64,000 nucleotides of DNA from Rosistilla carotiformis (GTDB lineage: Bacteria; Planctomycetota; Planctomycetia; Pirellulales; Pirellulaceae). This document shows positions 39,566 to 44,210 of this stretch, piece by piece. The stretch is from positions 4,526,001-4,590,000 of the forward strand of contig NZ_CP036348.1 of assembly GCF_007753095.1 (NCBI RefSeq), read 5' to 3'. Position 1 is the first letter of the stretch; every line of letters starts with the position of its first letter. The notes under the pieces were generated by a model. It ran no database searches. It was not told where the DNA came from and was given only the letters and a program-made list of their open reading frames with translations. The translations under genes were made by a program, and so were the position numbers.

Positions 39566-40849
39566 CTAAGGTTTCGCAAGCCGATCGGCCAGATACTTTG
39601 CGGGTTTTGCTCGCAATTCATCGCCATCGCCGGGAAAACCTAACGATGCGGTGAAGAAGACCACCGTCGCGTGTTCGCGTGGATTCAGATAGCCCGCTTC
39701 ACGTAAATCGCCCCCCAACAATTTGATCGAAACGGCAACGGCAATGTCACGGACATGCACCGCGATCGGGTCGCGAGTATCGTCGGGCTGATCGGCACCG
39801 ATCGGCATCCGCCGAGCATCGATCGTCAGCGGTTGCAATCTTGGCAGATCGCTGGGGTCACCATATTTGGCGACCACCAACAACGCTTGTTCCAACGATT
39901 CGCTGTATTTCGGGTCGACGGTCTCTTCGCCTGATAGATCGGTTCCGGTCGCGATAAAATCCGCGATCACTTCCCGCGCCAAATCGACCGCTTCGGGGAT
40001 TCGGTGTTGCAGGGCAAAATACATCGCCTGGGGCTGATACGAAACGCTTGCCCGGCGCATCCAAAAACCAACCAGCTTCTGATAGACCGGAGCCAACATC
40101 GCATCCTTTAATGTCTGGCTGGTGACCTGGCTGTTCATGATCCGCACCAACACGCGTTCCACCCCCGGTGGGATCGGCGCCGATCGATCGCCACAGGTCA
40201 ACAGAAGCGCCACCGCATCGCCGCGTTCGGGGGGCAGAAACTCCAGCATCATCCGACGGACGACCAAGTCGGCTGCTTTGTTCGCCGCCACCATCCGCGG
40301 TCCCGGTCCTTTCTCCAGTTCAACCATCAGTTCGCGGTGGGATCGCGCCGCGTCGACGAACAGTTCTCGCGAGGCTTTGCTGTCGCCGATCAAACGGCGG
40401 GCGTAGTCCCAGCCGTCCATCTCATCGCTGCCCCCGGACAGGAACGCGGTGACAGCCGATTCAAAATCGTTGTTGCTCAATCGCGACATCAGGATCCGAA
40501 TTCGCAACTGGACCTCGGGGTCGGGCGTGTCCGCCGCGGCGGCCAACATGGGAATCACGGGTTCGCCAATTTCGATTAACGCTGCCCCGGCCTCTTCACG
40601 GGTCGCAAACTTCGACGAGGACAAGTCGGCGATCAGTTCGTCGATCCGTTGCCGGTCGGCCGCGGTCAGGACAACCGGCGGCTTGGCAGTGGGTTGGGTC
40701 TCGTTGCCGATTGCATCGTCGGAAGCTTCCGCTGGCGTGGCGGCCGGATTCACCGCGGGCTGAGCGGTGGCGACCGCCGCTGGCAAACAACACAGCACCA
40801 GCAACCATCGATGCAGTGAAAGCGAATGGAAGATTTCGCGAGTATTCAA
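39566..40849 (-). CDS. Secreted HEAT-like repeat protein of unknown function
   Basis: A 427-residue protein with a signal peptide (MNTREIFHSLSLHRWLLVLC then CLPAAVATA). An Ala/Pro-rich linker precedes ADRQRIDELIADLSSSKFATREEAG, a motif typical of planctomycete HEAT-like modules that begin with a Leu-Gly-Ser/Asp-Phe-Ala-Thr-Arg-Glu-type helix pair. The remainder is helical. There is no ATG at the start: TTG at 40849, with GAGG nine bases upstream, is the best choice, and TTG at 40864 is an alternative. It lies 64 bp upstream of the FAD oxidoreductase start and may share its transcript. No enzyme motif is visible. Confidence 0.8.
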   Translation of the reverse strand: MNTREIFHSLSLHRWLLVLCCLPAAVATAQPAVNPAATPAEASDDAIGNETQPTAKPPVVLTAADRQRIDELIADLSSSKFATREEAGAALIEIGEPVIPMLAAAADTPDPEVQLRIRILMSRLSNNDFESAVTAFLSGGSDEMDGWDYARRLIGDSKASRELFVDAARSHRELMVELEKGPGPRMVAANKAADLVVRRMMLEFLPPERGDAVALLLTCGDRSAPIPPGVERVLVRIMNSQVTSQTLKDAMLAPVYQKLVGFWMRRASVSYQPQAMYFALQHRIPEAVDLAREVIADFIATGTDLSGEETVDPKYSESLEQALLVVAKYGDPSDLPRLQPLTIDARRMPIGADQPDDTRDPIAVHVRDIAVAVSIKLLGGDLREAGYLNPREHATVVFFTASLGFPGDGDELRAKPAKYLADRLAKP

Positions 40850-41139
40850 TGAAGCAGGCCTCAATCGGGGGTGCTTTAAATTCGACGGTTTCGAAGGATC
40901 CGATGCACGAACGCTTGGATCCGATGGTGGCCGCGATCACGTCGCCGGTCGCGAGCCACTTCCCAAACTTACGCATTGGACCAACAAAAATCAAAATCCG
41001 GACACAGGGGACGCCCCTTTTGACCGTTCCCCCATGGAGGCCTGGGGTTGGCCAGTGGCAAGCTGCGTCAACTTTACCAGTTAATCTTAGCACGGGAAGC
41101 GTCAGCCGCAGAGATTCGGTAAAGCCGCGACGCGAAGGG

Positions 41140-41168
41140 TTGCCGTCGACCGGGGACGTGGCTAGATT
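41140..41168 (+). promoter_or_regulatory. Possible sigma-70 promoter of the cystathionine gamma-synthase gene
   Basis: TTGCCG (41140-41145) and TAGATT (41163-41168) are separated by exactly 17 bp; each matches four of six consensus bases. Transcription would start near 41175 and give a leader of about 224 bases that contains both the antiterminator segment at 41180 and the terminator at 41278. Confidence 0.4.
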
Positions 41169-41179
41169 GAGAGGGTACA

Positions 41180-41313
41180 GGGATTTGCGGCCGCTTGCAG
41201 CCTTCACTGCTAAACAGCCACTCGAATGCTTGGTAAATCGTTCACGGTTTGCCCCCGATAGCCGTCGAGTTTCGCACAGCCGCATCCCCCTGCATGGGAC
41301 GAGCGGCTTTTTT
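41180..41313 (+). promoter_or_regulatory. Attenuator-like leader with mutually exclusive hairpins
   Basis: GGGATTTGCGGC (41180-41191) can pair with GCCGCATCCC (41279-41288): six bases, a two-base bulge, then four bases. The same GCCGCATCCC segment is the 5' arm of the terminator, where it pairs with GGGAcgaGCGGC (41296-41307). Between them lie CTCGA/TCGAG (41221-41225 with 41265-41269) enclosing GGTAAA/TTTGCC (41232-41237 with 41248-41253). This is the layout of a riboswitch or attenuator expression platform. No known SAM, SAH or cobalamin aptamer core is recognisable. It lies upstream of the enzyme that commits homoserine to methionine synthesis, so a methionine or SAM signal is plausible but unproven. 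Confidence 0.5.
41278..41313 (+). terminator. Intrinsic terminator inside the cystathionine gamma-synthase leader
   Basis: AGCCGC-a-TCCC (41278-41288) pairs with GGGA-cga-GCGGCT (41296-41308) around a seven-base loop and is followed by a run of six T (41308-41313). No plus-strand gene ends nearby (the previous plus-strand gene stops at 33060), and the sequence is T-rich only on the plus side. It therefore acts 85 bp in front of the next gene. Confidence 0.75.
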
Positions 41314-41398
41314 CGTAGACTGATTTTGAGATGCACCGACTGCGGCTTGCCGCTCGCCAGCGGTTCAAAACACGCGTTACGGAAAGCGATACCTCAGC

Positions 41399-42619
41399 AT
41401 GGCTACCGACACAGTGGAACAAAACAGCGCAAAGCAGGAACAGTCGAAACATCAGGGCATGAGCACCAAGAGTGTTCACGCAGGCGAAGACCGGCAAAAA
41501 CCGGGGGACGCGATTGCCGATCCGATCTTCTGTTCATCGACCTTCACATTCCGAACCACCGACGACGTGATCGATTACTGTGAAGGCCGCAGCGACCGCG
41601 AGGAATACGGTCGTTACGGAAACCCCAATGAACGCAGTGTCGAACGCAAGTTGGCGGCGCTCGATTGTGGCGAAGCGGCAATCGTCTACGGCAGCGGGAT
41701 GGCGGCGATCGTCGGCCTGTTGATGGCAAAATTGAACGCCGGCGACGAGATCGTCTTCTTCGATCAATGTTACCACCGCAGCCGCGAATTCTGCAGCAAG
41801 CATCTGGCCCGTTTTGGCGTCGTCACACGGCAAGTGCCGACGGGCGATTACGACGCGATGGAAGCGGCGATCAACGAAAACACGCGGATGCTGGTCAGCG
41901 AATCGCCGACCAACCCTCACTTGACCTGCATCGATCTGGAACAATTCGTGGCGTTGGGCAAGGCGCACGAAGTGGAAACGCTGATCGACGCGACACTGGC
42001 CACTCCGTACAACATCCAACCGCTGGAATATGGCGTCGATTACGTCCTCCATTCGGCGACCAAATATTTGGGTGGGCACAACGACCTGTTGGCGGGCGTG
42101 ATCGTGGGCGGTGCCGAAGCGTTGGAACCGGTTCGCAATTTGCGAGGCATCATGGGTGCGGTGAACTCTCCGCACAACATGTATCTGTTGGAACGTGGAC
42201 TGAAGACCTTCGAACTTCGCATGCAACGGCACAACGCCAACGGTCAAGCGATCGCGGAATTCCTGGAATCGCATCCGCGCGTCGAACGCGTTTATTACCC
42301 CGGTCTGAAGTCGCATCCGACTCACGAGATCGCAGCCCAGACGATGCGTGGCTTCGGTGGCTTGGTGACCTTTACGATCAAGGGCGCCGACATGCGTCAA
42401 ACGGCCAACATCGTCGATGCGGCACGAATTCCGCGGATCGCACCGAGTCTGGGTGGAGTCGAATCGCTGATCGAACAACCGTTGGTCATGAGTTATTACA
42501 AGTGCACGCCAGAGCAGCGGGCATCGTATGGCATCGCCGACAACATGATCCGCATGTCGTGCGGGATCGAAAACACCGAGGATTTGATCGCGGATCTGGA
42601 ACAAGCGCTCCAAGCGTAG
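41399..42619 (+). CDS. metB: Cystathionine gamma-synthase, plant-type PLP enzyme
   Basis: A 406-residue PLP-dependent trans-sulfuration enzyme. The PLP lysine is in LHSATKYLGGHND (Lys222). EYGRYGNPNERSVERKLAAL and SESPTNPHLTCIDLE are family signatures. The segment DQCYHRSREF (Tyr125) replaces the usual LYGGT motif and resembles DCYRKTRIF of plant cystathionine gamma-synthases. The same holds for GVESLIEQPLVMSYY and NSPHNMYLLERGLKT. I therefore favour gamma-synthase over gamma-lyase, although lyase or methionine gamma-lyase activity cannot be excluded by eye. The start may be the ATG at 41399 or 41459 (MSTKSVHAGE, the usual family start). A terminator follows the gene, and an attenuator-like leader precedes it. 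Confidence 0.85.
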   Translation: MATDTVEQNSAKQEQSKHQGMSTKSVHAGEDRQKPGDAIADPIFCSSTFTFRTTDDVIDYCEGRSDREEYGRYGNPNERSVERKLAALDCGEAAIVYGSGMAAIVGLLMAKLNAGDEIVFFDQCYHRSREFCSKHLARFGVVTRQVPTGDYDAMEAAINENTRMLVSESPTNPHLTCIDLEQFVALGKAHEVETLIDATLATPYNIQPLEYGVDYVLHSATKYLGGHNDLLAGVIVGGAEALEPVRNLRGIMGAVNSPHNMYLLERGLKTFELRMQRHNANGQAIAEFLESHPRVERVYYPGLKSHPTHEIAAQTMRGFGGLVTFTIKGADMRQTANIVDAARIPRIAPSLGGVESLIEQPLVMSYYKCTPEQRASYGIADNMIRMSCGIENTEDLIADLEQALQA

Positions 42620-42648: not shown

Positions 42649-42679
42649 AAAGGCCAGGCTGCCCCGCCTGGCCTTTTCC
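42649..42679 (+). terminator. Terminator after the cystathionine gamma-synthase gene
   Basis: AAAGGCCAGGC (42649-42659) and GCCTGGCCTTT (42666-42676) form an 11-bp stem with a TGCCCC loop, followed by TTTCC. It separates the gene from glnA, which therefore probably has its own promoter within the next 100 bases, although no consensus boxes are clear there. Confidence 0.8.
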
Positions 42680-42785: not shown

Positions 42786-44210
42786 ATGGCGAGCGTAAAG
42801 ACCCCGCAAGACGTGTTGTCGATGTGTCGACAACACGATGTCAAAGCGGTCGACTTTCGATTTACCGACTTTCTGGGCGTATGGCATCATAAGACGGTTC
42901 CCGTTTCCGAACTCAACGAAGATCTATTCGAAGATGGCACGGGCTTTGATGGATCGAGCCTACACGGCTGGCAATCGGTCCATGAGAGCGACATGCTTTT
43001 GGTACCACAGCCAGAAACCGCGTTCCTGGATCCGTTTAATGATTTGCAGACCTTGAATCTGATCTGCAATGTGCAAGATCCGATCACGGCCGACGCGTAC
43101 CCTCGCGATCCGCGATACATTGCCCGCAAAGCGGCCGGCTACCTCACATCGACCGGAATCGCCGACACCGCGTACATTGGTGCCGAAGCGGAATTTTTTG
43201 TCCTCGACGACGTGCGGTTTGACCTGACGCCACAAGGATCGTTTTACAGCATCGACAGCATCGAAGCCCCCTGGAATCGCGGGCGTCAGGAATCGCCCAA
43301 CCTGGGACACAAGATGCGTTCGCAAGCGGGCTATTTCCCCTGCCCGCCAGCGGATCAATTGTTCGACCTTCGCAACGAAATCATGCAGACATTGATCGAG
43401 ATCGGATTGAATGTCGAGTGCCATCACCATGAAGTGGGCGCGGCCGGTCAATGCGAAATCGATCTGCGGTTCGATCAATTGATCCGCACCGCCGACATGA
43501 TGATGATGTACAAATACGTTGTGAAAAACGTGGCTCGGCGGCACGGAAAAACGGCCACCTTCATGCCCAAACCGATCGCTGGCGAATTCGGCTCGGGGAT
43601 GCACACCCACCTGTCGCTTTGGAAGGACGGAGATCCGTTGTTCGCCGGTTCGGGCTATGCTGGCCTCAGCGATCTCGCGGTCCATGCGATTGGCGGCATC
43701 CTGCACCACGCCCCCGCGTTGCTCGCCTTTACCAATCCGACGACCAACAGTTATCGGCGTTTGCTTCCCGGATACGAGGCTCCCGTCCACTTGGCTTACG
43801 GGCGCCGCAACCGATCGGTCGCCTGCCGGGTGCCGATGTACAGCCCCAACCCCAAGGCGAAGCGGCTCGAATTCCGCTGTCCCGACCCCAGCAGCAATCC
43901 TTACCTCGCGTTCTCCGCGATCGTCATGGCAATGATCGACGGTATCTCCAATCGGATCAGCCCCGGCGAACCGATGGACAAAGATCTGTTCAAGGTCCCC
44001 GCCGACGAATTGGCCGGGCTGCGTACGACGCCGGCTTCGTTGGACGAAGCCTTGCGAGCGCTCGAAGAGGACAATGATTTCTTACGCGTCGGAGACGTCT
44101 TTAGCGAAGATGTGATCAGTAGTTGGATTCGGACGAAGCGTGAGTTGGAGATCCTTCCGACACGCTCGCAACCCACGCCGCTGGAATACTGCCTGTACTT
44201 CGACGTCTAA
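42786..44210 (+). CDS. glnA: Glutamine synthetase type I, adenylylation Tyr replaced by Phe
   Basis: A 474-residue type I glutamine synthetase, close to the 469 residues of E. coli GlnA. Landmarks are FDGSSLHGWQSVHESDM, GAEAEFFV, EVGAAGQCEIDLRF, the ammonium/glutamate loop FGSGMHTHLSLW, LLPGYEAPVHLAYGRRNRS and RLEFRCPDPSSNPYLAF. The region that in E. coli reads MDKNLYDLPPEE (Tyr397, the site of AMP attachment) here reads MDKDLFKVPADEL, with Phe402 (codon 43989-43991). The enzyme is GSI-beta-like in length, but the hydroxyl needed for adenylylation is missing, so it is probably not controlled by GlnE. GGAG lies seven bases before the ATG. Confidence 0.96.
   Translation: MASVKTPQDVLSMCRQHDVKAVDFRFTDFLGVWHHKTVPVSELNEDLFEDGTGFDGSSLHGWQSVHESDMLLVPQPETAFLDPFNDLQTLNLICNVQDPITADAYPRDPRYIARKAAGYLTSTGIADTAYIGAEAEFFVLDDVRFDLTPQGSFYSIDSIEAPWNRGRQESPNLGHKMRSQAGYFPCPPADQLFDLRNEIMQTLIEIGLNVECHHHEVGAAGQCEIDLRFDQLIRTADMMMMYKYVVKNVARRHGKTATFMPKPIAGEFGSGMHTHLSLWKDGDPLFAGSGYAGLSDLAVHAIGGILHHAPALLAFTNPTTNSYRRLLPGYEAPVHLAYGRRNRSVACRVPMYSPNPKAKRLEFRCPDPSSNPYLAFSAIVMAMIDGISNRISPGEPMDKDLFKVPADELAGLRTTPASLDEALRALEEDNDFLRVGDVFSEDVISSWIRTKRELEILPTRSQPTPLEYCLYFDV

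Follow-up and report, generated by a model that had tools for sequence, protein, structure and literature searches.

The closest described counterparts of the leader reported here are the SAM-II riboswitch (metA motif, RF00521; Corbino 2005, PMC1273637) and the SAM-V riboswitch (RF01826; PMC6061858). SAM-II, described in alpha-proteobacteria, a few other proteobacteria and Bacteroides, is an H-type pseudoknot with the core motifs GAUUUG, GCUUGCAGCC and GCUAAAGA; it is associated with methionine genes, with a promoter just before P1 and a terminator downstream, so that the aptamer stands at the 5′ end of the transcript (PMC1273637). The crystal structure of SAM-V shows in which way the ligand is held: U47, held by U8, forms a pair with the adenine of SAM, the U20:A48.U9 triple lies opposite the sulfonium, U19:A49.U10 is the triple next to it and A50 holds the amino acid end (PMC6061858). 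The same superfamily includes the SAM-II long loops family (RF01726). In plants, SAM also feeds back on cystathionine gamma-synthase (CGS): Arabidopsis CGS1 is controlled by the MTO1 nascent peptide and ribosome stalling, that is, with the same enzyme type and the same effector as considered below and yet with no RNA aptamer (PMC8137854).

A literature search found no SAM-II-type switch described in Planctomycetes. The listing of Weinberg 2010 includes a 'Rhodopirellula-1' motif from Proteobacteria and Planctomycetes, and the element described here may be identical with that motif. The element lies in Rosistilla carotiformis (genome size 7.4 Mb), within a window, the whole stretch of DNA analysed, of 64,000 nucleotides (contig NZ_CP036348.1, positions 4,526,001 to 4,590,000). 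Very probably it is a minimal member of the SAM-II/SAM-V superfamily whose P1 has only 3 bp, and works as an OFF riboswitch that senses SAM and attenuates transcription. The computed support consists of sequence conservation, covariation in P1, the position of the promoter, the association with one type of gene and the complementarity between terminator and aptamer. The features of the locus are collected in Table 1.

Table 1. Features of the leader and of the downstream gene (positions in the window)
Feature	Position	Strand	Basis or remark
-35 element TTGCCG	41140-41145	+	4/6 match to TTGACA; 17-nt spacer
-10 element TAGATT	41163-41168	+	predicted transcription start ~41174-41177
Predicted antiterminator strand, CAGGG and UGCGGC, overlapping P1, L1 and P2b	41178-41191	+	minimum free energy (MFE) pairing with 41279-41292
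SAM-II-type aptamer core, short-P1 variant	41179-41219	+	41 nt nearly invariant in relatives; covariance model R1 63.8 bits
P1 5′ strand AGG, pairs with CCU 41201-41203	41179-41181	+	outer pair covaries
L1 GAUUUGC, third strand	41182-41188	+	U41184-41186 equivalent to SAM-V U8-U10; UUU invariant; contact roles from PMC6061858
P2b 5′ strand GGC, pairs with GCC 41217-41219	41189-41191	+	invariant within the order; other pairs at the equivalent place in both G022 SAM-II copies
UU and P2a 5′ strand GCAG; GCAG pairs with CUGC 41207-41210	41195-41200	+	UU equivalent to SAM-V U19 U20; alignment, contact roles from PMC6061858
P1 3′ strand CCU	41201-41203	+	outer-pair covariation
P2a 3′ strand CUGC	41207-41210	+	alignment of relatives
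UAAA, predicted to contact the ligand	41211-41214	+	equivalent to SAM-V U47 A48 A49 A50; invariant in 139/139 leaders; PMC6061858
P2b 3′ strand GCC	41217-41219	+	alignment of relatives
Variable hairpin between aptamer and terminator	41232-41253	+	predicted fold; hairpin not conserved in relatives
Intrinsic terminator, 5′ arm AGCCGCATCCC competing with the antiterminator	41278-41313	+	predicted fold
Predicted regulated gene, PLP enzyme of CGS type	41399-42619	+	PF01053, 431 bits; ATG at 41399

The core and its distribution in Pirellulales

The gene that follows the leader had been called a plant-type CGS by an earlier reading of the sequence alone. In this respect, tobacco CGS (1qgn/1i41) is indeed the best PDB match of the product, with 348 bits against the 305 bits of methionine gamma-lyase, whereas in an NCBIfam search no equivalog cut-off was reached, so that no confident enzyme name can be added. 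Downstream, a terminator-like hairpin (42656-42674) is found 3′ of the CGS gene, ahead of a GlnA-type glutamine synthetase gene (42786-44210).

When the leader was compared by blastn with 60 relatives, the only matches outside the genus covered some 42 nt (query positions 60-101). They came from about 50 genomes, spread over many families of Pirellulales, had 82-98% identity and lay near the orthologous gene. The conserved block reads as a pseudoknot, with P1 NGG:CCN, L1 GAUUUG, P2b GGC:GCC, P2a GCAG:CUGC and a joining UAAA, arranged in the order P1 5′, GAUUUG, P2b 5′, UU, P2a 5′, P1 3′, a short loop, P2a 3′, UAAA and P2b 3′; the consensus of the 49-row alignment is NGGGAUUUGYGGCCGCUUGCAGCCN-(variable)-CUGCUAAAGWGCC. 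A covariance model, R1, built from Pirellulales cores only, matches 158 of 296 Pirellulales genomes. Its single match in the genome of R. carotiformis is the core of Table 1, neither R1 nor RF00521 finding any further copy there. In a pattern scan of GTDB genomes, fetched independently, at least 119 loci carry the core; among the 119 listed, 112 have the CGS-type gene downstream on the same strand (median distance 208 nt), and the remaining 7 are followed by a contig end within 370 nt. Some lineages have the CGS gene without the core; in three such genomes (G041, G043 and G023) a search for a diverged element found none.

One short-P1 element was observed in a metagenome-assembled genome labelled Oligoflexus (L189, 6328-6374, minus strand). 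Its P1 is AAG:CUU and it precedes a more diverged CGS homologue; its presence there is due either to transfer outside Planctomycetes or to mis-binning.

Pairing of the pseudoknot and the predicted ligand

Taken as a whole, the 259-nt leader folds no better than shuffled sequences (z = +0.63); folding energy alone therefore proves nothing, and relatives are needed. Specifically, the outer pair of P1 is able to form in 114 of 139 leaders, compared with 66±5 after shuffling (0 of 2000 shuffles reach 114), and is unpaired in the other 25. The pair is A-U in 72 leaders, U-A in 24 and C-G in 14, namely the kind of compensatory change in relatives on which the sequence-only reading had made its proposal depend. 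The next position outwards (-4:+3) and slid controls do not pair above chance in the same 139 leaders, and P1 is accordingly taken to be 3 bp long. On well-supported branches of the CGS gene tree, changes in P1 are on average about 5 concordant and 0 discordant (median p 0.06), so that the demonstrably independent events are modest in number. P2a and P2b pair in all leaders but one and are nearly invariant within the order, and no covariation appears in them because the sequences do not vary there. In the wider family, P1 and P2b differ in sequence yet stay complementary, both in elements of another planctomycete family (f86) and in the two copies of genome G022, discussed below. The stretch between the P2a strands ranges from 4 to 36 nt, and the connection between P1 and P2 is mostly 2-5 nt beyond P1. 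As a separate observation, the P1-P2a stretch is expanded in relatives of family f13 (G048, G463, G472, G489 and G495). A hairpin in this connection is found only in the lineage of G048, at the place of SAM-V P3, which in G048 it resembles.

The same variability bears on another reading, in which translation of a leader peptide encoded by the conserved block would control the terminator. Some leaders do contain short frames (..FAAACSLHC*, for example). Nevertheless, frame and stop shift between relatives, as the variable loop changes by non-multiples of three, no start codon is consistent, conservation is at the nucleotide level and P1 covaries; peptide-mediated attenuation is thus hardly credible here.

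As to the ligand, the core has nearly all the nucleotides for which a contact with SAM is reported. Assigned by their position in the motif, the equivalents of SAM-V U8-U10, U19-U20 and U47-A50 are invariant, UAAA in all 139 leaders and the rest in the 49-row alignment. The earlier proposal of a methionine- or SAM-related signal can be narrowed on this basis, with SAM as the likely ligand, judged from the equivalents of the SAM-V contacts. A riboswitch of the same fold could in principle bind something else (SAH, methionine, homocysteine or another adenosyl compound): the 3-bp P1, the 4-bp P2a and a C in place of A at the A18 position could accompany an altered specificity, and a CGS-type gene would suit several signals. 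We regard a ligand other than SAM as very unlikely, as the invariant positions include both U residues that turn their O4 atoms towards the sulfonium, and the Rfam consensus of SAM-II likewise has C at the A18 position.

Promoter, terminator and the proposed switch

The position of the aptamer in the transcript is indicated by a conserved sigma-70-like promoter. Upstream of the leaders, predicted promoters score on average 7.8 of 12, compared with 4.4 in shuffles, the TTG of the -35 element is found in 101 of the best-scoring upstream regions, and in most well-scoring leaders 12-14 nt separate the end of the -10 element from GATTTG. With its promoter TTGCCG-17-TAGATT, the window element would stand at the very 5′ end of its transcript, and a transcription start downstream of 41313, named by the earlier reading as an outcome contrary to its proposal, is not what the promoter predicts. 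That reading was also right that there is no plus-strand gene upstream to be terminated, the nearest being a HEAT-like ORF on the minus strand (39566-40864).

The terminator, whose end lies 85 nt before the ATG, pairs AGCCGC (41278-41283) with GCGGCU (41303-41308) around an inner TCCC/GGGA, ends in a T-run (41308-41313) and folds at -16.1 kcal/mol. A simple terminator scan did not pick it up, probably because of its internal loop. The alternative pairing that had been suggested for its 5′ arm, with the region 41180-41191, proves to be the ligand-free MFE structure of the leader (-46.6 kcal/mol). In this antiterminator form, CAGGG (41178-41182) pairs with CCCUG (41288-41292) and UGCGGC (41186-41191) with GCCGCA (41279-41284).

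Relatives show that this is a general property of the leaders. A terminator lies between aptamer and gene in 83 of 143 unique leaders, and GCCGC is found in the 5′ arm of 72 of these 83 terminators compared with 10 of 197 control terminators, taken from elsewhere in the same loci, although such counts partly reflect shared ancestry. Moreover, in 67 of the 72 the GCCGC is followed by a purine, which can pair with U. As GCCGC(R) is complementary to (U)GYGGC of the aptamer, which spans L1 and P2b, aptamer and terminator arm are mutually exclusive, and the enrichment suggests that the antiterminator is under selection. The leader of this methionine-pathway gene thus bears out the attenuator logic first read from the single sequence. 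A second arrangement is found in about a dozen leaders (Rhodopirellula, Rubripirellula and others), which lack a terminator and have the start codon 0-15 nt after the aptamer; this suggests translational control. By the criteria used, 46 of 142 leaders belong to neither group, lacking both a clear terminator and a start codon close by.

The same data allow two further readings to be weighed. The first is an independent small RNA ending at 41313, which would account for the presence of both a promoter and a terminator and for the distance from terminator to gene, which reaches 190 nt in some leaders. It is made highly improbable by the synteny with CGS, invariable among the loci listed, by the leaders in which no terminator occurs and the start codon is within 15 nt of the core, and by the terminator arms complementary to the core. 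The second, a DNA-level binding site for a methionine or SAM repressor, would agree with very high conservation beside a promoter; its probability appears negligible, since the core lies downstream of the promoter, its internal spacing varies (4-36 nt), and a DNA site needs neither pairing covariation nor complementarity to a terminator.

In summary, the case for the attenuating riboswitch rests on the conservation of the core, the covariation of one base pair and the terminator arms constrained to match the aptamer. In the proposed mechanism, transcription would begin some 3-5 nt before P1. At low SAM, the CAGGG..UGCGGC segment in the 5′ half of the aptamer would pair with the 5′ arm of the terminator, and RNA polymerase would read through into the CGS gene. 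At high SAM, the ligand would intercalate in the major-groove triplex of P2 (U41184-41186 as third strand, UU 41195-41196 and UAAA 41211-41214), and the pseudoknot would be locked; the antiterminator strand being removed, the terminator would form, transcription would stop near 41313 and CGS would be switched off. This OFF direction is likely in view of the mutual exclusion of aptamer and terminator arm and of the SAM-II precedent.

A short-P1 relative of SAM-II and SAM-V

The sequence-only reading had recognised no known SAM core and had thought of an undescribed class. This part of it falls, as GAUUUG, CUUGC and GCUAAA make up the ligand-binding core of SAM-II/SAM-V, combined with a 3-bp P1. 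In an alignment, the Rfam SAM-II consensus and the core share GAUUUG, GCUUGCAgCC and GCUAAAgA. Of the SAM-II features, the ligand-binding core (GAUUU / UUGC / GCUAAA) shows little or no variation among the leaders examined, and the H-type pseudoknot of P1 and P2, the promoter just before P1 and the terminator before the ORF are all present. By contrast, the P1 of about 6 bp of the Rfam model is absent, pairing stopping after 3 bp; the 3′ strands of P1 and P2 are more shortly connected, P2a is a 4-bp Watson-Crick helix and the occurrence is in Pirellulales. With SAM-V the variant has in common a short P1 (4 bp in SAM-V), a short outer P2 helix and the same ligand-contact residues, and its form abutting the start codon resembles the translational platform of SAM-V. 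It differs in its mostly terminator-based platform, its longer P2a, its GC-rich sequence and, outside the G048-like lineage, the absence of the P3 stem-loop; the window aptamer lies 180 nt from the start codon, unlike the outer P2 helix of SAM-V, which lies over the Shine-Dalgarno sequence. Finally, its loops are short compared with those of SAM-II long loops.

In an Rfam scan, RF00521, RF01726 and RF01826 give no match to the window element at E up to 5, the core being missed because P1 has only 3 bp. The sole Rfam match of the window, BcKCsr2, is below threshold (E 0.094) and was rejected as a chance match. Several cores are overlapped, on the strand complementary to the aptamer, by matches of ssnA (RF03031), which at E 0.3-5.7 fall well short of the gathering score and are taken as a chance similarity common to homologues. 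RF00521 scores 16-20.5 bits in relatives, below its gathering score of 36. Searched over whole genomes, its best match in G013 is the CGS leader (20.5 bits), and subthreshold matches also fall on the leaders of G031, G057 and G059; as the leader is 70 nt in genomes of several Mb, the choice of the G013, G031 and G057 leaders is far from chance.

The gathering score of SAM-II is reached only by the bridging element L104 (36.3 bits) and by L081 (39.5 bits). The former is from a set of four genomes of one genus in family f86, found with R1, whose elements (L103/L104 among them) have a P1 of 5-6 bp (for example CGUGG:CCACG); L103/L104 score 26-27 bits with RF01726, under its gathering score of 44. 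Homologues of the L104 type, with a full P1, bridge the short-P1 element and SAM-II. The bridge is one of RNA, since the ORF after the L103/L104 elements (genomes of f86/g175; about 170 aa, uncharacterised, at best a weak TPR match) gave nothing informative in a Pfam search and has no evident methionine link. The other, in G022 (L081, G022:C5), is a canonical SAM-II (1501-1573) with a second, SAM-II-like copy 130 nt further on (~1640-1700) that has its own P1, GUCGCC:GGGCGAC. Downstream of the pair is a small, uncharacterised ORF that neighbours a dxs-like gene; the two copies are likely a tandem SAM-II arrangement in a planctomycete. On the minus strand of the same locus (1461-1617), Rfam RF02424 (Bp2_287 'sRNA') matches the antisense of the SAM-II riboswitch with an alignable core, and the family RF02424 may in fact be a SAM-II riboswitch for which the wrong strand was annotated.

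Taken together, the element is classified in the SAM-II/SAM-V superfamily as a new variant with a short P1. It is kept outside RF00521 because P1 length and score fail, and it is not regarded as a class with a new ligand. It is unlikely, in our judgement, to form a separate class that arose in Pirellulales from the need for the 5′ half of the aptamer to double as antiterminator strand, its trimmed P1 and extended P2a having altered the kinetics or the choice of ligand (a response, for instance, to SAM together with another adenosyl metabolite).

Classified as a short-P1 variant, the element extends SAM-II-type regulation to a whole planctomycete order where Rfam recognises hardly any of it; with an Rfam model of its own, it would be annotated in hundreds of genomes. 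The tolerance of the pseudoknot for a 3-bp P1, suggested by these leaders, points to a very small SAM aptamer of 41 nt. In addition, one aptamer serves two expression platforms within one order, a terminator or an adjacent start codon, which opens platform switching to study. The gene predicted to be regulated in this way is a plant-type CGS; in plants, SAM likewise exerts feedback on the corresponding enzyme, there by an unrelated nascent-peptide arrest.
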